Origin: Candidatus Schekmanbacteria bacterium
GTDB lineage: Bacteria > CSSED10-310 > JACPHN01
DNA: 64,000 bases
Reading direction: 5' to 3'
Assembly (NCBI GenBank): GCA_016188575.1
Contig: JACPHN010000118.1
Coordinates: forward strand, 14,347 to 78,346
A program made the position numbers and the translations under genes. This document shows positions 35,293 through 63,320 of the stretch, piece by piece; within the stretch, counting starts at the first letter, position 1; each line of letters opens with the position of its first letter. The notes under the pieces are model-generated. The model worked only from the letters and a program-made list of their open reading frames with translations, was not told the origin of the DNA and ran no database searches.

Positions 35293-36912
35293 GTGAAGGA
35301 GTGGACATCGTCGGACCGTCATCACCTGCGGATGCTCCGCGAGCTGCTGCGCCGCGACCACCTGACAGGAGCCTCCTGGTCCTACGCGCTGCGCGATCTG
35401 GCGGCGATGGTCGGCGAGGCATTGAACGCAAGTGAGGCGATGGTCGCCCTTTACAGCGGCTCTGAACGCGGGTGGTCGGCATGGGCGCGCAATGGGGACC
35501 GAGTGGAGCAGAGAGATATCGCCCGCCACGGCTCTCTCTCAGTTCTCGAGCGCGTGCGCGAAACCTCCGAGCCGGTGCTGCTCACCAGGATGGCGGACGG
35601 GGATCTTGCCAGCGAGAGTATCCTGCGGCATCGCGTTACCAGCGTGCTGGCCGTGCCGATTTGGTTCTGGGACGTTGCTGAGGACAGGCCGACCCGCTAC
35701 GTCGGCGGCTGTCTTTACGTACATCGTTCGGACGACGTTCCGCCGTTCTCGGAAAGCGACATCGACCTGGTTGTCGACCTGACGGAGATTTCCCAGCGGA
35801 CGCTGAATGTTCTTCGCCACCTCAGCGAGGTGAAGAGCGACTTGGAGGAGGCGCGTTACGAGCTCAGGGAATTGCGCCGCGCTGCCGCAGATCGCTTTGC
35901 GCTCGGCAAGTTCGAGACCCAGGAGCCATGGTTCGCGCGGCATGTGATCGCCACGTTGGCGCGGATCAGCCATGCGGACAAGGTGGGGATCATGATCCTG
36001 GGGCCCACGGGTTCGGGAAAGTCATTTCTGGCGCAGGCGTATCACTACGAGTGCCCACGCCGAACGGGGCCTTTTGTGGTCTTCGATTGCTCGCAGGTTA
36101 CTTCTTCGGAGACGCTGGCAGCGGAGCTTTTCGGGTATGCTGAGCGTTCGGGATTCGCGAACGCGCCGGAAAAGGGCCGCCATGGTGCGGCGCAACGGGC
36201 GCATCGCGGCACACTCTTCATTGACGAGGTCGGTCTGCTGCCTCCCGAGCTCCAGGCGCGGCTACTGAGCCTCATTCAGACCGGCTCGTTTGCTCCCTTG
36301 GGCCAGAGCGAGCGCGCACAGGTAGACGTACAGATAATTGCCGCCACCAATGAGCATCTGGAAGCGTTGGTGCGCCAGGGCCGGTTTCGCGAGGATCTCT
36401 ACTGGCGGCTCGGGGAAGTGGTGATTCGTTTGCCGCATCTGAACGAGCGGGCCGCGGATATCCCGCTGCTCGCGGAGAAATTCCTGCGGAGCGCCTGCCA
36501 GCGCTTTCGGCGTGACGATATCGCGGGGCTTTCCGACGCCGCAGTGCGGGTTCTCGTGCGGCAGGACTGGTCGCGCATGGGCAACGTGCGGGGGCTCGAG
36601 CACACCCTCAATCGGGCGGTACTGCTGGCTCCGGCCGGCGCAACCCGCCTCGATGCATCCGATCTGCAGCTCTCCGCGCTCTCCCTGGCGCCGCCGCCGG
36701 AAAGCGCGCAAACCGCGCCGCGCCAGCTCGACGCGGAGCAAGGTGAGCTCTCGTCGCGAGAGCTGAGCTCCCTGCTGGCGGCGATCCGCGAGACCGGGTC
36801 GGGAACAGCGGCGGCGAAGCGTCTCGGGATTTCCCGCGGCGTCCTGGTGTGGCAGCTTCGCAAGGCCGGGCTTACTATAAGAGAGCTCCTCCGCGATAGC
36901 TCGGCATCGTAG
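35293..36912 (+). CDS. GAF-AAA+-Fis regulator with divergent GAFTGA loop
   Basis: The 539-residue protein has an N-terminal GAF-like sensor (about 30-170), a coiled-coil linker, an AAA+ ATPase (Walker A GPTGSGKS at 237-244; Walker B LFIDEV with Asp311, Glu312; R-finger-like RFREDLYWRL) and a Fis-type HTH at the C-terminus (GTAAAKRLGISRGVLVW). This is the bacterial enhancer-binding protein layout. The sigma54-contacting loop is unusual: where GAFTGA is expected, residues 285-291 read RSGFANA. Either it contacts sigma54 atypically or it acts without it. GTG 35293, with GGGAG and GCAGGGC upstream, is preferred over the frame running back to 35053, which crosses the repeats. A 68-base gap leads to the second PknK-like kinase. 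Confidence 0.85.
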   Translation: MKEWTSSDRHHLRMLRELLRRDHLTGASWSYALRDLAAMVGEALNASEAMVALYSGSERGWSAWARNGDRVEQRDIARHGSLSVLERVRETSEPVLLTRMADGDLASESILRHRVTSVLAVPIWFWDVAEDRPTRYVGGCLYVHRSDDVPPFSESDIDLVVDLTEISQRTLNVLRHLSEVKSDLEEARYELRELRRAAADRFALGKFETQEPWFARHVIATLARISHADKVGIMILGPTGSGKSFLAQAYHYECPRRTGPFVVFDCSQVTSSETLAAELFGYAERSGFANAPEKGRHGAAQRAHRGTLFIDEVGLLPPELQARLLSLIQTGSFAPLGQSERAQVDVQIIAATNEHLEALVRQGRFREDLYWRLGEVVIRLPHLNERAADIPLLAEKFLRSACQRFRRDDIAGLSDAAVRVLVRQDWSRMGNVRGLEHTLNRAVLLAPAGATRLDASDLQLSALSLAPPPESAQTAPRQLDAEQGELSSRELSSLLAAIRETGSGTAAAKRLGISRGVLVWQLRKAGLTIRELLRDSSAS

Positions 36913-36980
36913 CGGGTTACCTGCCGGCTACTTCTCCTGTGGGAGCCCGTTCTGGAGCTCTCGAATCGGGCAACGCGATC

Positions 36981-39900
36981 ATGTCTGGCGTCTCAGCCGC
37001 CCCGTACGCTGGTTCCGCCGAGCACATCGGCCCCTATCGGCTTGCAGGAATGCTCGGCCGGGGTGGGTTTGGTATCGTGTACCGGGGCGTTCACGCGCAA
37101 ACCGGGCAGGCGGTGGCGCTGAAGACGCTGCTGCGCGTCGAAGCAGTCGGGCTATGGACGCTGCGGCGCGAGATCCACGCACTGATGGGACTGCGTCACC
37201 CCGCCATTGTGCGCATCCTCGACCAGGGAGTCGACGGCAACACTCCGTGGTATGCCATGGAGTTGCTTGACGGAGAGCCCCTCAATCGCCATTGTGCCTC
37301 GCTCAACCCCCTCGCTTTCTCGGGGAGCAATGCTGGTGAGCCGGATTCTTCGCGTGAACACGGCGGCTCCCAGCTCGCGGCCGAGCCAGTTGCGCCAGCG
37401 GCACCGGCGCGTGGCGCACCACCGCTCCCCCCCGAAATCCTCGACAGCATCGCCGTGCTCGGCATTCGTCTTGCCGAGGCGCTGTCCTATCTCCACGGCG
37501 AGGGCATCGTCCACCGCGACCTGAAGCCCGGGAACATCGTCATTCGACCAGATGGGACGCCGGTGCTGGTCGACTTCGGATTTGCCGCACACTTCGCCAC
37601 CGGCCTTAGCCGTGAGCGGCTCGAGGTCGACGGTCTCGGAAGCGGCTCGATTCTGTACATGGCGCCCGAGCAGATCCGGGCCGAGCTCTCCGATACGCGT
37701 GCGGACCTCTATTCGCTCGGGTGCATTCTGCACGAGCTGATCGTCGGGCAGTGTCCGTTTGTGGGTCGCCGTATCTCCGAGGTCCTGGACCAGCATCTGC
37801 ACCACAAGCCGGAGCCGCTGTCGGTGAGGCGTCAGGGGATACCGCAAGAGCTCGACGAGGTGGTCGCACGCTTGCTGGCCAAGAACCCACGAGATCGTTA
37901 CGGCTATGCGGAAGACGTCGCCTTGGCGCTCGCAGCTTGCCGTGGCGCTGCCGCGCCGCTCATCAGTAGGGGCAAGCTGTTCCTGCATCGCACGACGCTG
38001 GTGGGCCGCGAGCAGGTTCTCATCTCGCTGTCGCAGCGCGTCGCGCAGCTCCGGGGATCGGGTGGAGGTGTAGGGCTGCTCCTTGGCGAATGCGGCGTGG
38101 GCAAGACCCGCATGCTGATGGAGCTTGCGCGTCACGAGCAGCAGCGATTCGACCGTATCCTCACGGCATCGTGTCCGGCTCCTGCAGATGACGCGCCGCC
38201 AGGGAGTGAGCGGCCGGTGCCGCTCGGCGTGTGGCGCGAGATCTTTCGGCGGGTCAGAGAGCAGCTCGACCACGGGGAAGATCGGCTGCCGGTGCGATCG
38301 GAAGAGGAGGAGTGGGTATTGAGCATCCTGGCACCGCGGACCCGGTCCGCGGAGCTTCAGTATGATGCAGCGCATCGCCCGGAGAGCTTGCCGCCGGGCA
38401 GCGCGCGGATGCGGTTGTTTTTCGCGATGTCGGGGCTCCTTGCGCGTGCGGCCGAGGGGTGCTGCCTGCTGGTATTGCTTGATGATCTGCAATGGGCGGA
38501 TGAAGTCAGCATCGACTTCCTGCGGTTTCTCATCCGTTCCACCCCGCCGGTCGCCCGGGACGTGACGGTGTTGGCGGCAGTGCGCACGGAGAGCCTGAAC
38601 CCATCGCTGGAGGAACTGATCGCCAGCCGCCACCATGTCGCGGTCCAGCTTGATCGCCTCGACCAGGAGTCGGTCTGTGCTCTCGTCGCGGACATGCTCT
38701 CCGTGACGGCGCCACCGCCTCCACTGGTGGCGTATTTGCACCGCCATTCGGAGGGGAACCCGTTCTTTGTCGCGGAGTACCTGCGCGCGGCGGTGGAATC
38801 GCGGCTTATCGATCGCGCGGCAGGGGCGTGGAATTTCGCGAGCGCGCTCGCGGTGGTGTTGGGCAGTGACGAAGGGGCTGCGGCCCAACCTGCGTTACTG
38901 CCGGTCTCCGTGCGCGAGATCATCGAGCGTCGCCTGCGTGGACTGGGCTCGCGAGCGCTCGAAGTAGCGCGCGCCGCGGCGGTGCTTGGCCGGGAAGTCT
39001 GGCTCCACGATCTCTCCTACCTCGTGGCTCTCGACGAGGGCCAGCTCCATGAGGCGATTACGGAGCTCCTGCGACGCTCCGTGCTCGAGCAGCTCGACCC
39101 CGAGCGCCTGGGGTTCGCTCATGAGACGATTCGCGAGATCGCGTATGAGGCGGTCGCCGGCGATCGAAAGCGCGAGCTGCACCGCCTCGCGGCGGCACAC
39201 CTGGAAGTCGCTGAAGGGCGTCCGGCCGCAGTTCCCGGCGGCCTGATCGCGCACCATTGGGAGCTCGCGGGTGAGCGGGAACGGGCCAGCGAGGCCTTTG
39301 CCCGGGCGGCGCGCGAGGCGGAGTCGGTGACGGCCATTGCGGACGCGATTGGTGCGTTGACGCACGCCATACGCCTGCGCGAGGACGGGAGCGGAGCGCG
39401 TTGCCTCGAGCTTCTCCAGCATCGCGCGAGGTTGCGCGATCTCTTGGGGGAGGCGGCAGAGGCGGCCAGCGACCTCCGTGCGGCCGTGCGGAATGCCGCC
39501 GCCGCCGGCCTGCCGGATGCCGCGCTGCGGGCGCAACTGGAGCTGGCAAACGTGCTGCTGCGGGCGGACGATCGGGATGGCGCCCGCGCCGTGCTGGAGG
39601 CAGCGTCGCCGCGCGCCCGCGCCTGTGGAGGTGACGAGGCGGTGAGCTGGCTGACCTTGTCGGCGCGTCGCGCCTGGAAGGACGGCGATGTCGCGAGCGC
39701 GGAAGCTCAGCTCGTCGAGGCGCTCGCTTTCGCGCGCGGGCGCGAGTCCAGGCATTTGCTGTGTCGGGTGCAGCACGACCTCGCCCTGGTTCTTCAGGAG
39801 CGCGGGCGATTCGCGGACGCGGTGCGCTGCTACCGCGAGGCGGCCGGCCTGGGGAGGAGCTGCAACGACGCGTATCGGACTGCGATCGTGCTCGGCAACA

Positions 39901-40925
39901 TGGGAACCCTCTTCCTGCGCCGCGGCATGCTGGACCGGGCCGAGAGATGCCATCAGCAGGCGCTGCGCATGCACGTCAAGAGTGGCGACCGGTTCCACTA
40001 TGCGGTGGTGCTCGGCAATATCGGCACCGTGGCGCTGGACCGGGGCGAACCGGACCGCGCGCGCACAAACTATGACGAGGCCCTGAAGCTGTGCCGGCAG
40101 ATGGGGAACGATGCCGGCGTCGTCCAAAACACCATCAATATCGCGTTCGTCGACCATGAAAAAGGCGAGATCGGCAGTGCCTTGCAGCGCCTGACGCCGG
40201 TTGTCGAGCAGGCGCGCACGCGCGGCAGCGCGCAGCTTCTCATCGTTGCGCTCTACAATCGCGGCAGCGTGCTTGCCGACTTGGGGCGCTTCGACCTTGC
40301 CCGCCAACTGCTCGCCGAAGCGGCCGAGCTCTGCCGCAAGGGGGGTGATCGGTTCCATCTCGCCGAGGCACAGACAAGGCTCGGCGAGATCTCGTGGCTG
40401 CAGGGCCGTTTCGCCGAGGCGCGAGCGCTGCTTGGCGAGGCGCACGCCGAATGTCGGGAAATCGGCTATGACACGCTGGAGTTGCTTACGCGAGTCTGGT
40501 TGTTGTTGGCGGAGCCCGCGGGACGGGGTGCCGCGGACACGGGCGTCGCCGTCGACACCGCAGGCTTGATCGCGGCCTGCCGTGAGCATGGCCGCACAGA
40601 CGTCACGGTCGCCGTTGCTCTCGTCCTGGCCGAGCTGGCCGTGGCGCGGCCAGCGGATGCGCCGCTAGCCCACGCAGCGCGCGACCTGGTAGCACAGGCG
40701 GCGCTGCTCGCCGACCAGCGCGGCATGCGGCGCGAGCGCTTCCCGCTACAGGTCGCCGCCGCTCAGCTCGCCCGCCTCGCTGGCGATCACCGGCGCGCAG
40801 ACGAGGCGATATCGAGAGCCACCGACGAACTGGCATGGCTTTTGCAGCAAATCCCTGAGGAATACCTCGCCGACTTCCGCCGGCACCCCCGCGTACTCGC
40901 CTTCGCGGCCGCCACCATGAGGTGA
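36981..40925 (+). CDS. PknK-like Ser/Thr kinase with ATPase and TPR sensor
   Basis: The 1314-residue protein is a paralogue of the one at 20764. The kinase (about 15-320) has GRGGFGIVYRG, Lys in VALKTL, HRDLKPGN from His178, DFG from Asp198 and APEQ, with a roughly 50-residue Ala/Pro-rich insert before the catalytic loop. The ATPase carries Walker A GECGVGKT at 369-376 and LLVLLDDLQWADE. The C-terminal 500 residues contain clear TPRs (AIVLGNMGTLFLRRGML, VVLGNIGTVALDRGEPDRA, VALYNRGSVLADLGRFDLA). It follows the AAA+ regulator by 68 bases and its stop overlaps a GTG of the protease frame, so all three are probably one operon. ATG 36981 is chosen. Confidence 0.9.
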   Translation: MSGVSAAPYAGSAEHIGPYRLAGMLGRGGFGIVYRGVHAQTGQAVALKTLLRVEAVGLWTLRREIHALMGLRHPAIVRILDQGVDGNTPWYAMELLDGEPLNRHCASLNPLAFSGSNAGEPDSSREHGGSQLAAEPVAPAAPARGAPPLPPEILDSIAVLGIRLAEALSYLHGEGIVHRDLKPGNIVIRPDGTPVLVDFGFAAHFATGLSRERLEVDGLGSGSILYMAPEQIRAELSDTRADLYSLGCILHELIVGQCPFVGRRISEVLDQHLHHKPEPLSVRRQGIPQELDEVVARLLAKNPRDRYGYAEDVALALAACRGAAAPLISRGKLFLHRTTLVGREQVLISLSQRVAQLRGSGGGVGLLLGECGVGKTRMLMELARHEQQRFDRILTASCPAPADDAPPGSERPVPLGVWREIFRRVREQLDHGEDRLPVRSEEEEWVLSILAPRTRSAELQYDAAHRPESLPPGSARMRLFFAMSGLLARAAEGCCLLVLLDDLQWADEVSIDFLRFLIRSTPPVARDVTVLAAVRTESLNPSLEELIASRHHVAVQLDRLDQESVCALVADMLSVTAPPPPLVAYLHRHSEGNPFFVAEYLRAAVESRLIDRAAGAWNFASALAVVLGSDEGAAAQPALLPVSVREIIERRLRGLGSRALEVARAAAVLGREVWLHDLSYLVALDEGQLHEAITELLRRSVLEQLDPERLGFAHETIREIAYEAVAGDRKRELHRLAAAHLEVAEGRPAAVPGGLIAHHWELAGERERASEAFARAAREAESVTAIADAIGALTHAIRLREDGSGARCLELLQHRARLRDLLGEAAEAASDLRAAVRNAAAAGLPDAALRAQLELANVLLRADDRDGARAVLEAASPRARACGGDEAVSWLTLSARRAWKDGDVASAEAQLVEALAFARGRESRHLLCRVQHDLALVLQERGRFADAVRCYREAAGLGRSCNDAYRTAIVLGNMGTLFLRRGMLDRAERCHQQALRMHVKSGDRFHYAVVLGNIGTVALDRGEPDRARTNYDEALKLCRQMGNDAGVVQNTINIAFVDHEKGEIGSALQRLTPVVEQARTRGSAQLLIVALYNRGSVLADLGRFDLARQLLAEAAELCRKGGDRFHLAEAQTRLGEISWLQGRFAEARALLGEAHAECREIGYDTLELLTRVWLLLAEPAGRGAADTGVAVDTAGLIAACREHGRTDVTVAVALVLAELAVARPADAPLAHAARDLVAQAALLADQRGMRRERFPLQVAAAQLARLAGDHRRADEAISRATDELAWLLQQIPEEYLADFRRHPRVLAFAAATMR

Positions 40926-40969
40926 GATTTCCGCCCCATCCCGCGCCTTTCAACAGACAGAGGACTCCG

Positions 40970-43900
40970 GTGACCAGATCAAGGACCCACACGACAGACA
41001 GCGACCTCGCTTCGCTTGCCAACCTCGGGCCGCGCCACCCCCTCGTCGTGATCGCCGCCGCCATGCTTCTCGGCGCGCTCACCATCTGTGCCGCGGCTCC
41101 CGCCGCGGCGAGCGATCGGCGCATCATCGCCCAGTTGCGCCCCGTCGACGGCGCGCCTACCGTCCCCGCCGGCGCGCGCCTCGGCGCCGAAGCCCGGTGG
41201 GCGCAGTCGCTGGCTGAGCGCCTTCCAGGCACGCACGCCGCCCGCCCGCTCGCCACCGACCTCGCGCAGCTCGAGAGGCGTTTTTCGGGTCCCGTCGCCG
41301 ACGGTATGGCGCTGACCTCGCCACCGCTCCGCCGCCTGGCGCGCACCGTCGTCATCGAGCTCGACCCGTTCGTCCAGGCCGACGCGTACCTCGCGACCCT
41401 AAAGACCCGGGCGGACGTCGCCTGGGCGGAGCTCGATGGCAATGTGCGCGCATTGACGGCCGTGCGCACACCCAATGACCCATCCTTTGTCACGCAGTGG
41501 GGCCTGAGCAATGACGGCAGCGCGGGCAGCCTCGACGTCGACGTTGATGGCCCCGAGGCGTGGAGCTCGAGCGTGGGCGACCCGGACATCATCATCGCCA
41601 TTCTCGATTCCGGCCTGGACCTGGACGACCCGGAATTCGCCGGTCGACTGGTCCTGGTTCCGGCGGCGGACGCCGTCAACGGCGATGATGACCCCAGCGA
41701 CGACGCCGGCCACGGCACCGCGGTCGCCGCCGTCGCCGCCGCGGCAGGTGACAACGGCGTTGGGATCGCAGGGATGTGCTGGCGCTGCTCCATCCTACCC
41801 ATCAAGGTGCTCGACAGTGAAGGAATCGGTTCCTATGCGACCATCGCCGACAGCATTCAGGTCGCAGCGGCGGCCGGCGCTCGCGTGATCAACCTCTCGG
41901 TCGGTGGTACGACCAGCTCTGAGGCCATCGCCGCCGCCGTCGATGCGGTTACTGCCCTGGGCGTCCTGGTCGTTGCGGCGGCTGGAAATGAGTCCACCAC
42001 CGCGCCTGTGTATCCCGCCGCGCTGCCATCGGCGCTGGCCGTCGGGGCGATCGACCGCAATGGACAGACCGCGTCGTTTTCCAACCACGGCTCCTGGGTA
42101 GACCTGGGAGCACCCGGCGAGGACATTACCACTCTACTTCCCGACGGTGCCGTGGCCTCGTGGCGCGGCACGAGCCTCGCGACCGCGTTTGTGTCGGGAG
42201 CCGCGGCGCTCGTCCTGGCGACCCATCCCGACTGGAACGGCAACGAGGTGCAGCAGCACCTCAGGCGCACTGCCAAGTCGCTGGACGCGGGTGGCCCGAT
42301 CAGCACGATCGTGTCCGCCGGCCACGCCCTGTCCGCCGACACGACCGCGGAGGCGCGCGTCGCCGGCCATCGCATTGATGATGCGGCGCAGGGCAGCGGG
42401 GACGGCAGAATCGATCCCGGGGAAACCTTCTCGCTCTATGTCACCGTAAGCGCTGATTACGCATCACTGGGGCCATTATCCGGTACGCTCTCGGTCCTGA
42501 ACCAGGCCGCGTCACTCGACCAAGGCATCGCTTCCTGGCCCGCGATCCCTTCCGGCCGGGCGGCGGAAAATGTCACGCCCTTTGTGCTGACTGTTCCCGG
42601 GACGATCAGCGGCGCCTGGGACATCGAGCTCGAGGTGGCATTGAGCAGCGGGGAACAGAGCTTGGGGACCGCGGCGATCACACTCGACATTGCCGGCGGC
42701 AAGGAGCTGCCGGCCACTGAATTCTGCGAGGACACGACCCTGGAGGCAACTGCCTATCTGGTGCGCTCGACGATTACGGTCTGCCCCGGAGCTACGCTGA
42801 CGTTGCCCCCGGGCAGCTCGCTTCACGTGCTCCCTCGTGAGCCCCGGGGTACCCCATCAGAGATCCAGGTTTTCGGAACCCTCATGGCGGTGGGGACCGC
42901 TGACAAGAAGATCGGCTTCTCCGCAAGCTCCTCGGCCCCCCAGCCCGGTGACTGGGGACCCATTCGCTTTCTGTCGACCAGCTCGCCGAGCTCGGTCATT
43001 CAGCACGCCGAAATCCGCTACGGCACCGGCATTGCCATCCAATCCGCAGGGCCGACGATTGCCGACACCAAGCTCCGCGACAACACCGAGACCATCGCGG
43101 GGGACACCGACTCGTTCGCCAGGCTCGAGCGCCTGGACGTGGTTCAACCCATGAGCAGCACAGTTTCCGGCGGACCGGACAGCCTGCTATCGGATAGCAT
43201 CGTGGTTGGTGGCTTCGTCGACGTCGGCACGATCGAGGGCGGCACGCACATCTGGGACTGCGCCGGTGTTCGCGCGACGAACCTCCGGGGAAAGTCGGAG
43301 GTGCGGTCGTGCGGAGACGACGCCACCGCGTTTCGTCTGGATGCGGAAACGATCGAGCAGGCCACGGTGCGGGCAAACCGCGGCCCGACGTACGCCTCAA
43401 CCGTCACCGAGTCCATGATCGCGCAGAACAAGGAGGGCCTTTTTGTCAGCTCCGGCGCGGTTACCAACAGCCTGATCTTCGGGAATGGGGGGTTCGGGAT
43501 CACGGGGGCACCGGTAATCATCGACAGCGTCATTGCGCAGAGCACCCTGGGGGGCGTGGACTGCCGGGGTGACTGCACCGCCACCGGCAGCATCATCGAC
43601 AACGCCGGCACCAACCGCTACGCGGTGCGCGCGGGTGCCGATCCCGGGGTCACGCTCGACTTTGGGTCCAATTATTGGGGTGTCGGGCAGACCAGTCAGA
43701 TGGACCTACTTGGCGCGGACGCGAACATGACGGGAATCTGGGACGATCGCGATGAAAGCGGGCTGGCGCGCGTGGGCTACAGCGGCTGGCTGCCGGAAGC
43801 GCCTGAGCTGGTGAGCTCTCCAGGATATGTTCAGTCAGTGACGCTCGACCCCGCAAGCCCGGTGAGCTCCGGCGTGGTCACCTTCGCGATTCAGTTCAGC

Positions 43901-44533: not shown

Positions 44534-44923
44534 CTGCAGCAGGGCGCGCCGGGCCGCGGGTGCGGCGTGCGGCGCTGGTGTGCGCACATTCGCGACGGTG
44601 CGCACAACGCACGCGACCTCGCTCGAGGAGGGACGCGAGGCGACAGAGCCCCTTCCGTCTCCCCCCCCTTGCTTAGGGAGGGAGGTGCCTCCGTCCCTTC
44701 CCCCGCAAGACGGGAGGTGATCTGCCTCCGGCCCTCCCTCCGCTCGCGGGGGGAGGTGAGGTGGGTGATCTTCGTGAGGCGCATTCCGCGCAGCTTGCAG
44801 TCGAACAGGCGGCGGATTCTGGCTCGGCACGCCTCTTGCTCCTCAGCTTTCATGGTCCACTCCGGTCCCGAGCAGAGTCCACCGCCTCCGTCGTCGATTC
44901 GCCTTCCGCAAGGAGCCACTCGC
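44534..44923. other. Repeat-rich gap inside the surface locus
   Basis: 390 bases between the S8 protease and the next gene. Most is C/G-rich repeat sequence: hairpin-like pairs around 44665-44760 and the inverted family-B repeat at 44735-44819. On the minus strand, a short frame from ATG 44853 reads KAEEQEACRARIRRLFDCKL and runs into the repeats; I do not call it a gene. An AGGAG at 44911-44915 serves the gene at 44924. Confidence 0.5.
44735..44819 (-). repeat. Dispersed repeat, family B, copy 2
   Basis: The reverse complement begins GAATCCGCCGCCTGTTCG and ends CACCTCACCTCCCCCCGC, matching 4515-4599 closely in opposite orientation. Here the minus strand is open and encodes RIRRLFDCKLRGMRLTKITH. 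Because the other copy is broken by stops, this is more likely mobile or recombination-derived sequence than a gene. Confidence 0.55.
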
Positions 44924-46243: not shown

Positions 46244-46339
46244 GTCGACCGCGAGCTCGGTGTCGCACCGATGTGAATGTCTCCTCAGGAAGTTGAAGAG
46301 CCTCTGCTTGTCTCGCCTCGTAACCCGGAGATTCTTTCC

Positions 46340-49303: not shown

Positions 49304-52300
49304 TCACGAATCCATCGTCCCTCGCGAACGACGCGCCATCGAGCGCCGCCATGTCATCGGGAGGCGAATGCCAAGAGCGGCGCCGAGCATCGCGATCAGG
49401 AGCCCGAGCGCGCCTGGCGTGCCAAGCGGAACCGGTCCCGACACCGGTGTTGCGGTACCGGTGGGCGTCCCCGTTGCGGTGGCCGTGGGTGTCGTGGTTG
49501 CACTCGCAGTCGGCGTGGTCGTCGGAGTCGCCGTAGACGTTGCTGTCGCGGTGGGTGTCGTGGCCGTCGGCGTCGCTGTGGCCGTCGGCGTGGTCGTGGG
49601 CGTCGGCGTCAGTTGCGCCGGGACGGCCAGGCTCACGACTTCCGAGATGGGCCCTGGGAGCCCGCTCGCTTCTCGGGCCTGAACCGCAAAGTAATACGTC
49701 ATGCCGTAGTCGAGCGGCGAAACGGAAGCCGTCGTGGCGAGCCCCGCGTCCCTACTACTCGTGAGCTGACCGGGGCTCGTTCCCCACAAGACCGTGTACC
49801 CCCCGAGATCGTTCTCCTCGACGGCCTGCCACGAAACTACCGCGACCGGCGCGCCCTGTCGCCGGGTTCCGCCCTCCGGTGCCGGCCCGCCGAAAGCCCC
49901 GAGCCCGACGGCGATGCCGCGCGCGATACCGACGGGCGTGTCGATCACGAAGCTCGCCGGCACCTCGTCCGGCAGGTCGCGCCCGCCCGCCTCTCGCACC
50001 CCGCTCACGCGCAGCCAGCACAGCCCATCCGGGGTCTCCGTCTGGATCACGTAGGTCATCGTCAGCGTGTCATCGGTGGCGACAGTGGACCCCCACCGGG
50101 CATCCGACAGCGCGAAGTCCGTGAACGGCGAGTCGACTCCGAACGTCACCGTCGGAGGCGCGCTGGAATCCATCGCCCCGCTGAACAGGAACGTGAAGTC
50201 CACCTCCTGAGCGCCGACGGGGCTCGCGGGGTCGAGCGTCACGCTCTGCACGTAGGCAGGAGCTCCCGGCGGCGGGCCATCGCGCCAGTCGTCATAGCCC
50301 ACGGTGCCGAGACCGCTGATCGTGGCGTCGTACCAGTCGTAGATCGCGGCGATGTTCGCCCCTTCGTCGTTGCTGCGATCGCCGTTCGTGTCCGCCGCAG
50401 CCATCTGCTGAGACGCTGCGCCTCCCCAGAAGCTCCCGGTGAAGGCGGAGGCACCCGCCGCGGTGTGGCGCACGGCGTATCGGCCTCCGCTGCCGCCATC
50501 GTAGTTGTCGATGATCGAGCCCGTGGCCGAGCCCGCGCCGGTCAGCACGACGCCGGAGCCGGTGTTCCCCGCGATGGTGGACGACGAAATCTCGGCCGTT
50601 CCCGACACCCCGTCCCCGGCGTTGCGCAGCACGAGCGTCTGCTCGATCGACCCCGTGGCCGTCGAGACGCCTCCGCCGTTATTGGCGATGATCGAGCTCG
50701 AAATGTACCGCGTCCCGCTCACCCCGCCAGCGTTTTCGGTGATCGCGCTGCCGGAAACGCTCGTGGAGGCGACCGACTGACTGCGGGTAACGGTGGCGCG
50801 AAGCAGCGACCCGGTCACATTTCCGGAGTCGGCGACGGAGGAATCCAGGAGGAAGGCGTTGACATCGCCGCAGGAGTCAACATCCGTCGCCGTGATGAAG
50901 AGCGCGGTGAGGTTGCCGCACGACGAGAGGTTGGACCCGATGACGGCCCCCACGGACAGCACGCCCGCGCTCACGGTGCTGTCCTTCAAGGTGGCGCCGG
51001 CACCGGCGGACACCGCGGTGCCGGCCACGCGCGCGAGGTCGAGCCGTTCCAGGAGCGGGTGCGAGGCGGCGTCTCCCAGGATGCCGTCGGTGGTGTCGCC
51101 GAGAGTGAGGTCGGCGAGGTACGGGCTGGCGCCGGTGAGCGCGAATCCGGCACCGTACTGAACGACGGCGTGCGCGACTCGCGAGCCGCCGAGCGGAGAG
51201 AGCGGCACGTAGCTCTCGACGGCATCGGTAGACGAGCTGGCCAGCGCGATGTTACCCAGGCTGCCATCGCCAACGGCGCCGATCGCGACCCCCATTGGCA
51301 CCGACCCCACGGCGACGTCGCGGCGGGCTCCTCCCCAGGTAAGAATGCTGGCAGTCGCCGCGCCGCTGTTGGTGACCACGATCTCGCTGGACCCGTCGCC
51401 ATCGAGGTCACCGATGGCGATGCCGAACGGCGAAGCTCCTGCCGCCAGCGTGTAGCGAGCATGACCGCTGCTCGTCAACCGCAGCACCGTGACGTCGTTG
51501 GTCTCTTCATTGGCAGTCGCGATGTCGTTCTTGCCGTCGCCGTCCACGTCTGCGATGGCGACCCGCCACGGTCCCCACCCCACCGCGATCTCCTCGGCGG
51601 TCCAGTCCGCTCCGTCCCAGCGGAACAGGGTCACGCTGTCGCTCCATCCGTTCGCCACCGCGAAGTCGAGGTCACCGTCGTCGTCCGCATCCCCGATGGC
51701 GACCCCTCGCGGCCATGAACCCGCCGGCAGGTCCTTGCGCACCCAGCCGGATCCGGACCAGCGGAAGACGCTGGCGGAGCCGAACCAGCCGTTGGCCACG
51801 ACGATGTCGTTGTCTCCGTCGTTGTCCACGTCCCCGACCGCGACCGCCTGCGGGCCAGGCTGCGAAGCCAGATCCTCGCGCACCCAGGCGGATCCATCTC
51901 TCTCCAGCACCGTCACGTCATCCGTGGCCTCGTTGGCCGTCACGATGTCGAGGTCGCCGTCGTTGTCCGCATCTCCTACCGCGATCCCCGCCGGGCGCTC
52001 GCCGACGCTTTCGGTGTGCTCATCCCAACCGGAGCCCGTCCACGTCAAGATCGTGGCCGCGTTGCTGTAATAGCTGGCGGCGACCATGTCCAGGCTCCCC
52101 GAACCGTCCACATCGCCGAGCGCGACATCCTGCGGCTGGGTGCCCGCGGGCACGGAAACGGCGCGCTGCCAGCCGATCGCGTCGTCGCTGGAATCGCGAA
52201 AGCTGATCGCGCCCCAGTCCCCGGCCTGCGCATCGGGTGCCGCCGACGTGAAGAGAATCGGCTCGTCCTCGGTGCCGGCGGCGACGAGCCGGCCGTCGAT

Positions 52301-54178
52301 GGCGATCTCGATGGGCGGCGTCTGTCTTTCGACTTTCAGCGTCGTGCCCGGTGCGATCGCCAGCGTCGAGCCCGCGCAGACGTGGACGTCCTCGCGAACC
52401 ATGTAGACGTTTTTGGCCAGAGCAGTGTCCACGCAAAACTCTGACGCGGGCAGCTCCACGCCGCCGTCGATCGCCAGCGCCAGCGACACCTGCGCCGCAA
52501 ACCCCGCGCTCCCCGTGAGGTCGAGCGTGAAGGAAAGGTCGCTGCCCGCCTCCGCCCCGGGCGCCACCTCGACCGCGAAGGTGTCCGCGCTGTTGGTGAC
52601 CGACTCTCCGGACTCGAGGTCCGGCCAGGTGGCCGTGTCATCGGCGAGGGTCACGCCGGCCGCCGCCGTGGAGAGCGTGCCCGACAGGTTGGCGACATTG
52701 CCGTAGTCGCTCCGCAAGGTGATCGCGAGCGTGACGCTCTCGCCGGTGTCGATGCGGCCGTCGCCGTCGCCGGGTGCCGGATCGCTCACGGCCGTGGTGG
52801 CGATCGCAACTTCTGGCGCTACCGGCGTGGCAAGCGCCAGGTACGCGCTCGGCATGCCCGCTCCGACCCCGATGGCCGGCAGCGCTTTGGCAGTCCGGGT
52901 GAGCTGCTGCATGATGAGATGCGCGTTCCAGGTGGGATGCTCGGAAAGGAGCAGACCCGCGACACCGCTCATGAAGGGCGCCGCCATGCTGGTTCCTTGC
53001 CAGCTCGCGTAGGCGTTTCCGGGGAGCGCGCTCCAGATGGCGACCCCGGGCGCGCCGGCATCGACCCAGTCGCCGTAGCTCGAGAAGCTGGCGCGAGCGC
53101 CGGTGCGATCGATCGCGGCGACCGCGAAGACGTTGTCGTTGGCCGCCGGGTAGAACGGAGCGTCGGTCCCGGCGTTGCCCGTCGCGGCGATGACCACGGC
53201 GCCTGCCGCCGTCGCCAGGTCGATGGCGTCCTGGATGGCCGGCGAGGAAGTGGCGGCGCCGAGCGACAGATTCAGCACCCGGGCGCCATTCGCCACCGCC
53301 CGCGAAATCCCGGTGGCGATGTCCGAGAAGGTGCCGGTCCCCTGCGCGTCGAGCACCTTGATCGGCATGACCCGGCAGGCCCAGCAGACCCCCGCGATTC
53401 CCGCGGCGTCGTCGCCCTCGGCGACGCCGATCCCCGTGACGTGGGTCCCGTGACCGGCGTCATCGGTCGGGTCGTCGTCGCCGTTCACCAGGTCCGCGCC
53501 CGCGACCAGGTCGATGCGATCCAGCACGTCGCGGTTGCCCAGGTCGAGGCCCGAGTCCAGAATCGCCACCTGCACGGTGGCGCTGCCGGTCGTGACCTCC
53601 CAGGCGGCCGGTGCGTCGATGTCCACGTCCGCAGCACCGCCGTCCTGGCCCGTATTGTTCAGTCCCCACTCCTCGCTCATCTTGGGGTCGTCGGGCATGA
53701 TGTCCGTAGCGTGAACGAGGCCGTCGCGTGCCACCCACGCGACGTCGCGGCGCTGCTCCAGGCGGCGCCGGATGGTCTCGGCCTCCGAAGAAGTCGAAGC
53801 GGTGATGGCAAGCGTTCGGGCGAGGTCCGCGGCCAGGGTGCGGGCGCGCGCGAGGCGGGCAGGGTGCGACGCGCCGAGGCGGGCCGCCGCGACCGCGGCG
53901 AGCTGGTGGTGCTCAGGATGGAGCGGTCGGACGAACACCGTATCCGGGAGATCGAACGCGCTGGCCGAAAACGAACCGGTCTCGAGCGCAAGTCCTGCCG
54001 CGGAACCAGGCGTGAGCTTCACCAGCAGCGTCGCACCGGCGGCCGCCACCCCGCGCGTGCAGCTGGCAGCGGGGTCAGCGGCCCGGGCCAGGCGATGCGC
54101 ACCGCCGAGGTGGGCTGCCAGCGTGAGGAAAACGAATAGCGCGGCCGGCCCCAAGAAGTGTCTACCGTTGATGCTCAC
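49304..54178 (-). CDS. Secreted subtilase (S8) with nested beta-propeller and Thr/Pro linker
   Basis: The 1624-residue exported protease carries Asp208 (AILDSGLDL), His243 (GHGTHVTG) and Ser397 (GTSMAAPF). It then parallels the paralogue at 40970: a block starting VELPASEFCVDTA, a beta-helix, and an Fn3-like module (GGYTVLWGTSPGQLT). Inside the beta-helix part, residues about 670-990 are an inserted VCBS/FG-GAP propeller of at least six repeats (GDVDGSGSLDMVAA, GDADNDGDLDIVTA, ADVDGDGKNDIATA). A Thr/Pro-rich stretch (about 1540-1585) leads to the tail VPLGTPGALGLLIAMLG and Arg-rich end, a sorting-signal-like anchor. It is 24 bases downstream of the beta-helix/dockerin gene, same strand. Confidence 0.92.
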   Translation of the reverse strand: MSINGRHFLGPAALFVFLTLAAHLGGAHRLARAADPAASCTRGVAAAGATLLVKLTPGSAAGLALETGSFSASAFDLPDTVFVRPLHPEHHQLAAVAAARLGASHPARLARARTLAADLARTLAITASTSSEAETIRRRLEQRRDVAWVARDGLVHATDIMPDDPKMSEEWGLNNTGQDGGAADVDIDAPAAWEVTTGSATVQVAILDSGLDLGNRDVLDRIDLVAGADLVNGDDDPTDDAGHGTHVTGIGVAEGDDAAGIAGVCWACRVMPIKVLDAQGTGTFSDIATGISRAVANGARVLNLSLGAATSSPAIQDAIDLATAAGAVVIAATGNAGTDAPFYPAANDNVFAVAAIDRTGARASFSSYGDWVDAGAPGVAIWSALPGNAYASWQGTSMAAPFMSGVAGLLLSEHPTWNAHLIMQQLTRTAKALPAIGVGAGMPSAYLALATPVAPEVAIATTAVSDPAPGDGDGRIDTGESVTLAITLRSDYGNVANLSGTLSTAAAGVTLADDTATWPDLESGESVTNSADTFAVEVAPGAEAGSDLSFTLDLTGSAGFAAQVSLALAIDGGVELPASEFCVDTALAKNVYMVREDVHVCAGSTLAIAPGTTLKVERQTPPIEIAIDGRLVAAGTEDEPILFTSAAPDAQAGDWGAISFRDSSDDAIGWQRAVSVPAGTQPQDVALGDVDGSGSLDMVAASYYSNAATILTWTGSGWDEHTESVGERPAGIAVGDADNDGDLDIVTANEATDDVTVLERDGSAWVREDLASQPGPQAVAVGDVDNDGDNDIVVANGWFGSASVFRWSGSGWVRKDLPAGSWPRGVAIGDADDDGDLDFAVANGWSDSVTLFRWDGADWTAEEIAVGWGPWRVAIADVDGDGKNDIATANEETNDVTVLRLTSSGHARYTLAAGASPFGIAIGDLDGDGSSEIVVTNSGAATASILTWGGARRDVAVGSVPMGVAIGAVGDGSLGNIALASSSTDAVESYVPLSPLGGSRVAHAVVQYGAGFALTGASPYLADLTLGDTTDGILGDAASHPLLERLDLARVAGTAVSAGAGATLKDSTVSAGVLSVGAVIGSNLSSCGNLTALFITATDVDSCGDVNAFLLDSSVADSGNVTGSLLRATVTRSQSVASTSVSGSAITENAGGVSGTRYISSSIIANNGGGVSTATGSIEQTLVLRNAGDGVSGTAEISSSTIAGNTGSGVVLTGAGSATGSIIDNYDGGSGGRYAVRHTAAGASAFTGSFWGGAASQQMAAADTNGDRSNDEGANIAAIYDWYDATISGLGTVGYDDWRDGPPPGAPAYVQSVTLDPASPVGAQEVDFTFLFSGAMDSSAPPTVTFGVDSPFTDFALSDARWGSTVATDDTLTMTYVIQTETPDGLCWLRVSGVREAGGRDLPDEVPASFVIDTPVGIARGIAVGLGAFGGPAPEGGTRRQGAPVAVVSWQAVEENDLGGYTVLWGTSPGQLTSSRDAGLATTASVSPLDYGMTYYFAVQAREASGLPGPISEVVSLAVPAQLTPTPTTTPTATATPTATTPTATATSTATPTTTPTASATTTPTATATGTPTGTATPVSGPVPLGTPGALGLLIAMLGAALGIRLPMTWRRSMARRSRGTMDS

Positions 54179-54202: not shown

Positions 54203-57200
54203 CTACTGGGTCAGGCGCTTCCGAGAGCGCAGGGCAACCGCAACACCGACGCCGGCGCATGCCGCCAGGGTCAGCACCCACGCGGCGCCACCCAACGGCA
54301 CGCCGGCGCTCGGCGTGACGATCCACCCGTCGGCTGCGCTCACCTCGTCGCGCCACGCCAGATCTTCCCCATATTGACCGTAGAGGTGGATCTCGCCGAA
54401 GAAGACATCGATCTTGTTCACGTTGGCGATGGCGTCGTGATCCACTGCAAACACCAGGGTCGCCAGAGTGGTCGGGCCGAGCGTTTCCGCGACCGCCCGA
54501 CTCAGGACGATGCTGCTGCCGTTGCCCTCGACGCGCCAGCCCTCGAGAAAACCGTCATGCCCGCGCACATCGGTCAGGCTGACCGAGCTGCACGACCACC
54601 CGATGAGGAGCTGCGCCCCGGCGAGCCCGTCGGTGTTGTCGATCGTCACCGGCAGGGTGACTTCGCTTTCGCCCGCCCACGCCGCCTTGCCGATCTCGAC
54701 GGCATAGCGGCGCGGTTCCGTGCGGTGAGCCGCCTGGCTGCCTTGCTCCGGGTTGACGGCCAGGCCGACGGCGAGCCGCTGAATCCCGATGGCGTCACCC
54801 GCCGTGATGGCGCCATCGCCATTGACGTCACCCGCAACGAGCTGCTCTGCCGTCGGCTCGACGCGACCCGCCGCGATGATCAAGGCGGTGATCGCATCGC
54901 CGCTCGTCACCGCTCCCTCGCCCGTCAAATCGCCTCGCCGGTAGGCATCCGTCGCGGTGAAGCTGCCGCCTTCGAGCACCATGGTCACCTCCTCCACCGC
55001 GTCCCCGACGATGATGTAGGGGAGAAATTCGCTGAAGGTCAGCTCATGGGTCGCATCCGGAGGCAGCCCGGGGAGCACGGAGAAGACCAGGTCGAGGAAT
55101 CGGCCGCGGCCGAGCAGCTCGATCGGCTGATCGATGTCGGGGCTGAGCACGGACACGGCCAGCAGCCCGGGAGAGCTGTCGATGACCGAGATGTTGTCGA
55201 CGACCTGCAAGCCCGCGGCGAGCGCCGAGAGCTCGATGCGCACGGGGCGCAGCGCTGCCGGGTCGTAGCCTACCCAGATGTCCATGCTTTGGAGCGCCAG
55301 ATCTTCCGTGCTGTCCAGTGTGAGCGGCACGTACGCTTCGACAGGCAGGGCTCTGCCGGCGCCGCCGTCAGGTGAAGCGGACGCCCGATGCACGTGGCCG
55401 AGCTGACTGTGCCCCTGGAAGACGCGGACGTTGCGGAAGGGCTCGGACCACGGGCCCAGCTCGCCGTTGTGGACCGCGGCCACGGCGTAGTCGTAAAGCT
55501 TCGCCCGGTCGTGGTCGCGCAGATCGTCGCGGTAGTAACCCCACAGGGCATGACTGGTGTCGCCGATAGCCGCCCAGGGCGCGGTGTCCGGCGGGTGAGC
55601 GCGCCGGAAGACGCGATAGAAGTCGGGTCGCAGTGTTTGCCAGCCGAACGGCGGGTTCCAGTAGAGTTGCACGACGGGGCCGGGGGCGAAGGCTTTGAGC
55701 TGCTGGGGCGCGCCGAGCTGGGGAGTGGGGGTGAGGGTCGGGGAGGGGGATGGGGACGGCGAGGGCGGCCGGGTGGAGGAGGGAGTGGCCGAGGGGGAGG
55801 CTGAGGGCTTCGGTGTCGTGGAGGAAGGTGATGCGGTTGGCGTCGCGGTGCGGGTGGGCGATGGGAATGGCAGCGTCGCGGTTCGCGTTGGCGTGGCGGA
55901 TGGCGTGGTGGAGGGGAAACGCGACGGTGAAGGAGAGGGAGACGGAGATGTCGACGTGACGGTAGGCGTATGGGTCGACGTGGCCCCCGGTGGCGCGGTG
56001 TCGGATGGGGTTGCCGTAGGTGTGTGCGTTGGCGTTGTGGTACCGGAAGGCGTTTCGGTGGGTATTGGGGATGCGGTCGGCGTGTCGGTATTGGTGGACG
56101 TTGCGGTCTGGGTCGGGGCGGTTTGCGGGGTTTCGGTTGGTGTGCCCGAGGGTGTTTCCGTAGAAGTCGCGGTCGGCACCTGCGTGTGGGTAGCAGACGC
56201 GCTGGCGGTGGTTGTTGGCGTCGGTGGCACGGTGTCGGTTGGCGTTGGCGTCACGGAAGGCGGGGGCGACGTGGCGGTGGGCGTCCGGGTAACCGTGGGC
56301 GTGCGCGTTTCGGTTGGGGTTCCGGTTTGCGTTGGGGTTGAGGAAGGCGTGCCGCAGAGGCCGGAGCGGGTGGCGTCTGTCGTGTTGCCGTAGTTGCCCA
56401 TGTTGATGCGTCCACCGTTGGGGGCGGGCTCGGCGGCGTAGGCATCGGCCGGATCGCCTGCGTCTATCGCCGGTGAGCATACGTCAAGATGGTAGTCACC
56501 GTTGGCGGCGTCGACGAAAAGGGGATCGGCGACGATGTTGCCAACGTTGGTGCCGGGAGGGTTGATGGCGTTAATTTCGTTTGCGGTGTTCAAAACAACA
56601 GGTGGCCAATTCCAGTATTGTCCTGATGCATTTTCATGGAGAATGTTATACGAAAAAAATATAGTTGAGACGCCATTACCCTTTACACCATAACCACCGC
56701 TATTAGATATGATATTGTTCTTGATAGTTGGAGACCCTGCCATCGTAAAATCTATTCCAGATCCTTCGTTATTGAAAATGACATTATTTGTCAAGGTCGG
56801 AGAACCCTGGAAACCTACTCCACTGTTGCCTGCAACCACATTCCTATCATAGGATCCACCACAACATATTGCAGTACCGTTGTTATCAATAATTTTGCTA
56901 TCCACCATTACCACAGAAGAATACCCGCCTGTCCATATAACAGCGACATCAGCACTGTTTTCTGTTACTAATAATTTTCGTAGTAGCACATTATTGCAAT
57001 AATTGAGATACGCAGCGGCGCCGTTTCCATAACCAGTTGCCAATCCGCCAGTAATCGTAACGTTTTCTATCGCAAAATTACCAACAAATTCGCCGATCAT
57101 AGCAGGACCAGTATTTTCTGCATCGATGACACTGCCAATGTTGTCTTGGCCTTCCAAAGATACGCCTTCCTTTAATATTATTGGAAATAACTCAACGGAT

Positions 57201-58126
57201 GCATCATATATTCCAGACATAATAAATATGGTACTACCACCAGCAACACGCCTTAGTGCATAGACGATGCTTTGCCATGGAGATCCGACTGTGCCGCTTC
57301 CAGACACATGGAGGCTGGGATCAAAAGCAAAGTGGCTATTTGCAGATCCACCTGTTACCTGAATATTCGGTGCGACCAATTCGTTTGAAAGCATCTGAAC
57401 ATACGCCCCGAACCGCTTTTTGTGAGAGGCCGCAGTCTGGGATGGAATGTCTCTGTTGAGCACCTCGCTAACCTCCGAGGCGCTAGCTGCTGCGATGTTG
57501 GCAAAATCCCCCGTCCCAGCGTACGTCTTCGGCGCCGCCACGCCAAAAATGACAGACGTCGCATCAAAGATCGGCGGTGCCAACAACTGAAACGACGAAC
57601 CCGTTCCCGTCGGCCCGACCGCAATGAGCACCTGCCCGCCTCCGCCAACGCTTGCAATCGTCCCCAGCCCTGCGGCATTGATATTGGCCACGACCGTTTC
57701 GGCACTTACCGCAGCGTTGTCACCGGCTCCATTCCGGCAGTTGATCGTGATAGCAGTGCCACCGTTGACGGAAAGGCGGATGTTGTAGTTGACGCTCAAG
57801 TCGTAAGGCCCAGCCACCCAATCCGTATTCTGCGCCGGCGCCGCGTTGAACGTCGCGGTCTGTTCGGTCCCACCGTCGACCTTGACCGTCAGTGTGGATC
57901 CCGGAGTCAGGTTGTAGGGTTCAGGATTGCCCGAAATGACAACCGGGTCCGCGCCCGTCGACGCACTCACATAGTAGTAGGCGGCCTCACCCGCAACGGG
58001 AAGTCCAAACACGATTGCCGTCAAACCTAGAGCAATCACATAGCAGCGTCGCAGTAACCGAGTCCATTGAGACTGCCACACCTCACGCATCCCCATACCA
58101 TCGCCTGTCATACCTGTTCGCATCAT
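54203..58126 (-). CDS. Beta-helix, cohesin-like and dockerin-like surface protein
   Basis: The 1307-residue product has a signal peptide (YVIALGLTAIVFGLPVAGEA), an N-terminal beta domain and a right-handed beta-helix (about 210-560) with DPLFVDAANGDYHLDVCSPA at its end. A very long Thr/Pro/Ser-rich linker (about 595-805) and an Fn3-like module follow. Next come a cohesin-like beta-sandwich (about 925-1045), a dockerin-type pair of F-hand repeats (GDLTGEGAVTSGDA and GDVNGDGAITAGDA) and a second cohesin-like sandwich. The tail GVPLGGAAWVLTLAACAG plus RSRKR is sorting-signal-like. The beta-helix portion (about 56.6-57.4 kb) is clearly AT-richer than the rest. ATG 58126 overlaps the stop of the upstream truncated copy in ATGA. 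Confidence 0.85.
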   Translation of the reverse strand: MMRTGMTGDGMGMREVWQSQWTRLLRRCYVIALGLTAIVFGLPVAGEAAYYYVSASTGADPVVISGNPEPYNLTPGSTLTVKVDGGTEQTATFNAAPAQNTDWVAGPYDLSVNYNIRLSVNGGTAITINCRNGAGDNAAVSAETVVANINAAGLGTIASVGGGGQVLIAVGPTGTGSSFQLLAPPIFDATSVIFGVAAPKTYAGTGDFANIAAASASEVSEVLNRDIPSQTAASHKKRFGAYVQMLSNELVAPNIQVTGGSANSHFAFDPSLHVSGSGTVGSPWQSIVYALRRVAGGSTIFIMSGIYDASVELFPIILKEGVSLEGQDNIGSVIDAENTGPAMIGEFVGNFAIENVTITGGLATGYGNGAAAYLNYCNNVLLRKLLVTENSADVAVIWTGGYSSVVMVDSKIIDNNGTAICCGGSYDRNVVAGNSGVGFQGSPTLTNNVIFNNEGSGIDFTMAGSPTIKNNIISNSGGYGVKGNGVSTIFFSYNILHENASGQYWNWPPVVLNTANEINAINPPGTNVGNIVADPLFVDAANGDYHLDVCSPAIDAGDPADAYAAEPAPNGGRINMGNYGNTTDATRSGLCGTPSSTPTQTGTPTETRTPTVTRTPTATSPPPSVTPTPTDTVPPTPTTTASASATHTQVPTATSTETPSGTPTETPQTAPTQTATSTNTDTPTASPIPTETPSGTTTPTHTPTATPSDTAPPGATSTHTPTVTSTSPSPSPSPSRFPSTTPSATPTRTATLPFPSPTRTATPTASPSSTTPKPSASPSATPSSTRPPSPSPSPSPTLTPTPQLGAPQQLKAFAPGPVVQLYWNPPFGWQTLRPDFYRVFRRAHPPDTAPWAAIGDTSHALWGYYRDDLRDHDRAKLYDYAVAAVHNGELGPWSEPFRNVRVFQGHSQLGHVHRASASPDGGAGRALPVEAYVPLTLDSTEDLALQSMDIWVGYDPAALRPVRIELSALAAGLQVVDNISVIDSSPGLLAVSVLSPDIDQPIELLGRGRFLDLVFSVLPGLPPDATHELTFSEFLPYIIVGDAVEEVTMVLEGGSFTATDAYRRGDLTGEGAVTSGDAITALIIAAGRVEPTAEQLVAGDVNGDGAITAGDAIGIQRLAVGLAVNPEQGSQAAHRTEPRRYAVEIGKAAWAGESEVTLPVTIDNTDGLAGAQLLIGWSCSSVSLTDVRGHDGFLEGWRVEGNGSSIVLSRAVAETLGPTTLATLVFAVDHDAIANVNKIDVFFGEIHLYGQYGEDLAWRDEVSAADGWIVTPSAGVPLGGAAWVLTLAACAGVGVAVALRSRKRLTQ

Positions 58127-59268
58127 CTCACTCCCCCGCTCAGTCCCAAGGATCGACGCGACACCCGCCCAGCGACCACGGCGACCACAAGCACCAACAA
58201 CGCCGCCGCAAGGCCTTCGCCAACGGGTACTCCGTCCGCGGACGCGACGACCCAGCCATCCACGGCTGTGACGGGCTCCGTCCACGACAGATCGTTCCCG
58301 TACTCCCCGTAGAGCGCCAGCTTGCCGAGGACAAGGTCTGCTCGTCCTTGCGCAGCGAAGTCTGCTTCATCCACCGCGAACGTCAACACCGCCACGAGCG
58401 CTGGCCCGGTGGGCAGGGGTTCGGTCCGGCTCAAGACCACCTGCACGGCCGTGCCGACAGCATTGCTCTGCACCGTGAACGAGGTGTTCCCGACGACACC
58501 CACAAGCGAGAGCGCCTCGGAGGTCCAGCCGAGCTCGAGCTGCACGCCCGCCACGCCTCCGGCATCGGCGAGCTCGATCGCGATCTCGACTTGGTCCTCG
58601 CCCCGGCAGGTGGATCGTTGGACCGTGACCTGGTAACGACTCGGTTCCGCATGTCTCGTCCCTGCAGGGCGGGCATCCGGCGGATCGATGGGAAGGCCAA
58701 CGGAGAGACGCTGGACGCCGATGACGTCACCGGCGGTGATCCGCCCATCGCCATCGACGTCGCCGGCCGTGAGCTGTTCCTCCGTCGCCTGCGATCGCCC
58801 GCTGGCGATGACGAGCGCACTCAGGGCGTCGGCGCTGGTGAGGTCCGCGTCACCGTCGAGGTCACCTCGTCGGTAGGCGTCTGAAGCGTAATACGCGCCC
58901 GGCGCTACTTCCATCTCGATCGCCACGGGAGCATCGTCAATCAGAATGAACGCCTTGAACCGCTCAAAGTCCACGGGATATTCGGTGTTGCCAACCGCGC
59001 CCGGCAAGACCTCGAAGACCGCGTCCAAGAAACGGCCGCGTCCAATCAACTCGATAGGCAGCTCCAAGTTGGGGCTCAGGATCGACAGCTTCAGAGCTCC
59101 AGGGGATGCGTCAATGATGTCGATGTTGTGCACGATCTGAAGGCCAGTCGCCAGAATGGAGCGCTCGTGCCGCACGGGGCGAAGCGCCAGGACGTCGTAG
59201 GTGATCCAGATGTCCATACTGTGCAGCACGAGGCCACCCGCGCTTCCCAACTCGATCGGAACGGCCAC
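58123..59268 (-). pseudogene. 5'-truncated duplicate of the cohesin/dockerin-like module
   Basis: Up to 381 codons align along their whole length with the C-terminal third of the neighbour at 54203. LVLHSMDIWITYDVLALRPV matches LALQSMDIWVGYDPAALRPV; YRRGDLDGDADLTSADA and GDVDGDGRITAGDV match the dockerin repeats; GVPVGEGLAAALLVLVVAVV is the tail. No signal peptide or beta-helix precedes it: the frame runs into sequence antisense to the coiled-coil gene. The first GTG inside homology is at 59268, with no good ribosome-binding site. It is either a truncated duplicate kept for its translational coupling (ATGA) or a gene remnant. Intact frame over 1.1 kb argues for recent origin or selection. Confidence 0.7.
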
Positions 59269-63310: not shown

Positions 63311-63320
63311 GAGTTTCCTA

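Follow-up and report, generated by a model that had tools for sequence, protein, structure and literature searches.

A described precedent for the locus analysed here is PknK of M. tuberculosis, a Ser/Thr kinase that phosphorylates the transcription regulator VirS (PMC9045387, citing PMID 19251699). bEBPs, such as NifA, NorR, and RtcR, combine a GAF-like N-terminus, a Sigma54_activat AAA+ domain, and a C-terminal HTH, and the GAFTGA motif is the element interacting with sigma-54 (PMC4641369). STAND regulators such as MalT carry an AAA_16 NTPase followed by MalT-like TPR, with a DNA-binding output. Large expansions of TPR kinases occur in Sorangium and 'Ca. Uabimicrobium', those of the latter being mostly membrane proteins, with no regulator-protease linkage reported in the part of the paper available (PMC11032199). 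Large bacterial kinase families usually give no clue to the target of each kinase. In the literature, of which our coverage was incomplete, we found no described system joining a STAND kinase to an exported subtilase, in agreement with the initial annotation, which named none joining such a kinase to paired modular surface subtilases.

Our analysis of a 64,000-nucleotide stretch of a Candidatus Schekmanbacteria genome (the window) reveals genes for an AAA+ regulator, a STAND Ser/Thr kinase, and an S8 protease, identified by ORF listing and Pfam, that are co-directional on the plus strand in that order. Like PknK-VirS, the locus pairs a Ser/Thr kinase with a transcription regulator, the counterpart in the window being adjacency of genes only; unlike it, the locus includes an exported protease. 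VirS is not known to be a GAF-AAA+ protein. The window regulator has the domain order of bEBPs but belongs to a set of paralogues in which an SG[FY]-type sequence replaces GAFTGA in 14 of 14. The kinase shares with MalT the AAA_16 NTPase and the TPR that follows it, but in place of a DNA-binding output has an N-terminal protein kinase; in G002, a second genome from the phylum, a cyclase takes that place. The genome shares with Sorangium and 'Ca. Uabimicrobium' a lineage-specific expansion of TPR-bearing Ser/Thr kinases. The window S8 proteins share with S8A subtilases (mycosin-like, TIGR03921) the triad, the propeptide region, and the export signal, with a TIGR03921 score of 182, below the cut-off of 278.75, and differ from them in having extra beta-helix, FG-GAP, fn3, and VP-tail elements.

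Organization of the AAA+-kinase-S8 unit

The features of the unit and the gap that follows it are:

35293-36912, plus strand: AAA+ regulator, 539 aa, GAF-AAA+-HTH
36939 (GTG) or 36981 (ATG)-40925, plus strand: STAND-type Ser/Thr kinase, PknK-like, 1328 aa, Pkinase, AAA_16, and TPR array
40922 or 40970-44533, plus strand: exported S8 subtilase S8a, Pfam S8 and fn3
44534-44923: intergenic gap of 390 bp after S8a, with GC-rich palindromic repeats at 44650-44765

The AAA+ and kinase genes are separated by 26 bp or 68 bp, depending on whether the kinase starts at the GTG at 36939 or the ATG at 36981. The first possible S8a start, the GTG at 40922, overlaps the kinase stop at 40925 by 4 bp, while a later GTG at 40970, 44 bp after the kinase and with an AGAGGA ribosome-binding-like sequence, is better placed. 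These distances bear out the initial annotation, which had the three genes following each other with little or no spacing and had named a strong terminator and promoter between kinase and protease as evidence against the linkage; the junction has no space for a terminator. After the S8a stop at 44533, the next credible start lies near 44924, and a repeat related to those in the intervening gap also occurs 5' of the AAA+ gene (about 35096-35190). An Rfam search found no RNA family. The gap is probably a break in the transcription unit. The single 24-kb kinase-controlled surface protease and adhesin unit that had been proposed is not supported, given the repeat-bearing 390-bp gap, the lambda-carrageenase-like nature of the "propeller" protein, the reduction of the "truncated copy" to a remnant, the occurrence of the C-terminal tails genome-wide, the non-protease neighbours of most kinases of the family, and the 80 S8 loci of other phyla without a STAND kinase in their flanks; direct support for the label "adhesin" is likewise absent. 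The unit should be cut to AAA+-kinase-S8 (35293-44533).

The kinase combines Pkinase (4e-40), AAA_16, and TPR matches in one protein, and its motifs are intact: GRGGFGIVYRG, HRDLKPGN, and DFG, together with GECGVGKT and LLVLLDDLQW. S8a, with Pfam matches to Peptidase_S8 (1.4e-48) and fn3 (1.1e-7), comprises a signal peptide, a propeptide region, the S8 domain, a beta-helix-like region, fn3, and a VP-tail with TM and RRR. Its triad, D229/H264/S418, is intact and is invariant in 10 relatives. S8b, the exported subtilase encoded on the opposite strand, likewise has an invariant triad and falls in the same S8 clade as S8a in our tree.

A GAF-AAA+ family without the GAFTGA motif

The AAA+ regulator has a GAF-like N-terminus, a Sigma54_activat domain (8.2e-45; 152.9 bits against a cut-off of 20.2), and a C-terminal HTH. 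Specifically, Walker A (GPTGSGKS), Walker B (LFIDE), and FREDL are present, and SGFANA stands in place of GAFTGA. The genome encodes 14 full AAA+ paralogues of this GAF-AAA+-HTH type. In an alignment of 13 sequences reaching the AAA+ domain and one ending before it, Walker A, Walker B, and the arginine-finger region are retained, while the GAFTGA loop has become an SG[FY]-type sequence. A motif check found the GAFTGA sigma-54 contact motif absent from 14/14 AAA+-bearing paralogues; other activators of the same genome have GAFTGA or a GAYTGA/GAFTDA form in all 13 cases in which the motif was extractable. A promoter scan found no sigma-54-like promoter upstream of 13 AAA+ paralogues, and a k-mer search upstream of the AAA+ genes returned only a G-rich repeat. 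The scores of this family were unmatched in the other genomes of the phylum and in 385 other sampled genomes, three candidates per genome being scored there. Together with the pairing with STAND kinases, these results suggest that an activator fold may be used sigma-54-independently under Ser/Thr kinase control.

Association with STAND kinases recurs. At no fewer than nine loci, including the window, the AAA+ gene lies directly upstream of a STAND kinase gene, and across the pairs the AAA+ distances are correlated with the kinase distances (r=0.53, Mantel p=0.009). In most AAA+-kinase pairs, neither gene adjoins a protease, and the AAA+ genes at C256, C150, and C53 are orphans.

A clade of nine STAND kinases enriched in protease neighbours

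The genome is a 9.2-Mb MAG (275 contigs, 93.8% complete) with 78 homologues of the window kinase at E<=1e-80; the counts for seven further genomes from this small phylum are 26, 11, 7, 1, 0, 0, and 0. To survey gene context, we applied a codon-usage gene caller to about 110 stretches of the genome and classified the neighbours; the surveyed set comprises 1,517 called genes, at least 81 of which encode STAND kinases. A co-directional downstream neighbour is present for 28 of 75 STAND kinases, and most adjoin unrelated genes.

The window kinase belongs to a clade of nine with a support of 99 in a FastTree tree of 80 proteins and 100/98 in an IQ-TREE tree of 31. With the window left out, and in a post hoc test with small counts in which the clade is made up of the window kinase's nearest relatives, the share of kinases with an S8 gene no more than 5 genes/8 kb away is 4/8 in the clade and 2/72 among the other STAND kinases (p=6e-4). 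Under the same terms, S8 genes plus other protease-like secreted genes (HExxH-type, pseudo-S8) are found at 6/8 and 7/72 (p=1e-4), and strictly adjacent S8 genes at 2/8 and 1/72 (p=0.025, weak taken alone). The sample underlying these counts is a fragmented MAG with heuristic gene and signal-peptide calls, and some of its loci were fetched because of their S8 or AAA+ genes. The initial annotation had named kinase homologues of other genomes sitting consistently beside unrelated genes as evidence against the linkage: in this genome, such a pattern describes the family as a whole but not the clade of nine, which is enriched in proteases.

Three loci with an S8 gene directly adjacent to the kinase all fall within this clade: the window; C158, where the S8 gene precedes the kinase with a 4-bp overlap; and C219, where the order is kinase, S8, AAA+. 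Four further clade kinases have protease-like secreted or pseudo-subtilase genes nearby, so that the AAA+-kinase-subtilase linkage extends beyond a one-off. The S8 genes of C219 and C158 are sisters, while among the kinases that of C158 groups as sister with that of the window; the disagreement between the two trees indicates that the pairing arose more than once or that its parts were exchanged, and it rules out block duplication of kinase plus S8. Further protease-like neighbours of clade kinases include:

L121:4521-6143 (C54), minus strand: FHA-FHA-TM protein encoded immediately 5' of a clade STAND kinase, its extracytoplasmic domain being pseudo-subtilase/propeptide-like
L026:6302-8151 and L018:7638-9431: conserved HELGH/192-195-aa protein pair near sister STAND kinases, the HELGH protein having no confident Pfam peptidase family

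The C233 kinase has near it a secreted S8 fragment of 164 aa, to which the C-terminal domain of the C54 protein is related; the fragment aligns to S8a residues 282-343 with 39% identity. The sister kinases of the HELGH pair are those of C29 and C219-68539, each near a secreted HELGH protein and a secreted protein of 192-195 aa. At C78, an unrelated short S8 gene is in divergent orientation to the kinase.

In another genome of the phylum (G002, C156, L036), an S8 gene of S8a's clade lies 491 bp downstream of a gene for a cyclase-AAA_16-TPR protein, in which the same STAND part is joined to another output domain. With a cyclase-STAND protein as partner, this locus was rejected as a second kinase-S8 pair. 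The flanks of 80 S8 loci from many other phyla contain no STAND kinase or STAND protein (0/80).

Two further kinase genes lie elsewhere in the window. One, at 20764-24540 (plus strand), encodes another STAND Ser/Thr kinase, which shares 31% identity with the window kinase and falls outside the protease-linked clade; the other, at 26051-28237 (minus strand), encodes a HAMP-domain Ser/Thr kinase. A predicted tRNA-Arg (gcg) at 28084-28181 (plus strand) overlaps the opposite-strand HAMP-kinase coding region and is probably a false call.

Proposed mechanism and alternative explanations

We consider the AAA+-kinase-S8 linkage to be real, and for the nine-kinase clade an origin by chance is unlikely. 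The best explanation, to which we give an even chance, is that a STAND kinase acts through a sigma-54-independent AAA+ regulator on expression of a secreted protease. The window kinase would be a member of a small cytosolic STAND Ser/Thr kinase lineage repeatedly coupled to exported proteases. Its TPR array would sense a signal and switch the AAA_16 NTPase, and this would activate the N-terminal kinase, which would in turn phosphorylate the GAF-AAA+-HTH protein encoded just upstream. The AAA+ protein, having no sigma-54 contact loop, could then serve as a sigma-54-independent DNA-binding switch that adjusts transcription across its own operon, with S8a as a putative co-transcribed member, and S8a, sorted by its signal peptide and VP-TM-Arg tail, would act at or beyond the cell surface. 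The model builds on the order of the genes and their domains, on active-site motifs that are intact, on the missing GAFTGA, on a recurrence beside proteases that is specific to the clade, and on co-variation of AAA+ and kinase; the phosphotransfer, the DNA targets, the direction of control, and the substrate are its putative elements. This small kinase lineage probably helps to decide when exported proteases are made. An extended form, in which STAND kinase and sigma-54-independent GAF-AAA+ switch make up a dedicated circuit controlling exported subtilases, and in which at some loci (C54) the FHA-FHA-TM pseudo-subtilase protein reports protease state back to the kinase, seems to us quite unlikely.

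Among rival explanations, a lineage-expanded STAND-kinase family and an expanded modular-subtilase family may have met by chance, the kinase having cytosolic targets unrelated to the protease, as might be expected with at least 81 STAND kinases among the 1,517 called genes and 46 S8 matches in the genome, and as the many kinases without S8 neighbours and the 80 S8 loci of other phyla without a nearby STAND kinase would allow. We regard this as rather doubtful, since the enrichment centres on the nine closest kinases (p=6e-4, window left out), the loci show 4-bp overlaps at two sites and mixed gene orders, and a protein encoded before another clade kinase joins FHA domains to a pseudo-subtilase domain in one chain. 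Alternatively, the AAA+-kinase pair may be a general module for large surface or secreted proteins, with the subtilase as one cargo and proteolysis not the point. Large predicted-secreted proteins do lie beside STAND kinases more often than elsewhere (17/146 versus 52/1289, p=3e-4), 7/14 AAA+ paralogues have a VP-tail protein no more than 5 genes away (permutation p=0.0096), and BNR/Big, SBBP/fn3, and FG-GAP/cohesin giants are found near AAA+-kinase pairs. The large neighbours, however, are heterogeneous (TamB, TonB receptor, RHS, hybrid histidine kinase), so that part of the large-secreted signal is not surface-protein biology, and the association with proteases is particular to the clade of the window kinase. 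We accordingly judge a general module unlikely, and rejected large secreted neighbours as a general rule: the enrichment is real but heterogeneous.

An anti-phage defence operon, its kinase comparable to those of MADS or PD-T4-6 and its protease to the IetS type, is very improbable. PADLOC kinase models match the Pkinase domain and a PADLOC subtilase model matches S8a, but these matches are at domain level only and assemble no complete named system, and signal peptides and putative sorting tails at the C-terminus of the S8 proteins indicate that they act outside. On the preferred reading, kinase control of protease expression through the AAA+ switch, the nine-kinase clade and the 14-member AAA+ family without the sigma-54 loop provide testable sets of kinase, substrate, and target.

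Neighbouring genes and C-terminal tails

The genes flanking the unit are:

44924-46243, plus strand: PKD-like protein of 439 aa, anchored in the membrane and matching no family
46277-49150, plus strand: secreted lambda-carrageenase-like (GH150-type) protein, Pfam
49304-54178, minus strand: S8b, an exported S8 subtilase that also carries a nested FG-GAP propeller, an fn3 domain, a Thr/Pro linker, and a VP-tail
54203-58285, minus strand: beta-helix/cohesin-like/dockerin protein carrying a VP-tail, followed by S8b after 24 bp
about 58123-59290, minus strand: cohesin-dockerin-tail remnant ("truncated copy"); from there to 60630, the ORF is mostly opposite a plus-strand ORF
59431-60123, plus strand: coiled-coil protein facing the "truncated copy" ORF on the other strand and made of LKADV/ELKDGQA units, encoded by an array of 21-base repeats

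The PKD-like and propeller genes that the initial annotation had placed after the protease are present and co-directional with it; the 390-bp repeat-bearing gap, however, precedes them, and the "propeller" protein is lambda-carrageenase-like. Specifically, CGLA_M (2.8e-31; 109.5 versus 27 bits) and Beta-prop_CGLA (3.3e-16; 60.1 versus 26.8) match above cut-off, and CGLA_C (8.4e-5) at 23.0 bits falls under its cut-off of 27. The gene is the sole match in its genome, where it is single-copy. For GH150, the available part of the source describes structures as modelled only and catalytic residues as presumed from conservation (PMC12549532). A single-sequence AlphaFold model of the PKD-like protein has a pLDDT of 39.5, too poor for use. 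The two genes are neighbours of the AAA+-kinase-S8 unit and candidate members at most.

The facing run described earlier is likewise present, with S8, FG-GAP, and fn3 in one minus-strand gene and beta-helix, cohesin, and dockerin in the other by Pfam, the cohesin match, at 17.2 bits, being below its cut-off of 24.1 and the dockerin match, at 23.2, just over 22.9. At C210, the same C-terminal cassette precedes a relative of S8b with a 26-bp gap and no kinase, indicating that the beta-helix cassette and S8 pair is conserved on its own. The S8b/beta-helix pair is a neighbour of AAA+-kinase-S8 and at most a candidate member.

The VP-(TM)-Arg-rich C-terminal tail, exemplified by window 44453-44530 and 49304-49480, occurs in 47/1,517 genes (about 3%). 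Being genome-wide, it does not tie the plus and minus runs to each other, and shared tails were rejected as evidence that the two belong together. The tails have no PEP motif and no CTERM model match, and one exosortase-family gene was matched (C106, 35 bits); the VP-TM-Arg tail is possibly an undescribed sorting tail.

At window 56501-57500, the beta-helix part of the gene, GC drops to 42-47% in a region of about 66% GC, which suggests a recently acquired beta-helix module. What had been called a truncated copy of the beta-helix protein proves to be the cohesin-dockerin-tail remnant only. The upstream part of that ORF (window about 60300-60630, minus strand), which contains LPLLPTSTLKGAIRSFLEA, has a weak type III CRISPR RAMP resemblance (E about 0.09, below cut-off), and a DDE-transposase-like ORF lies at window 62476-63570.
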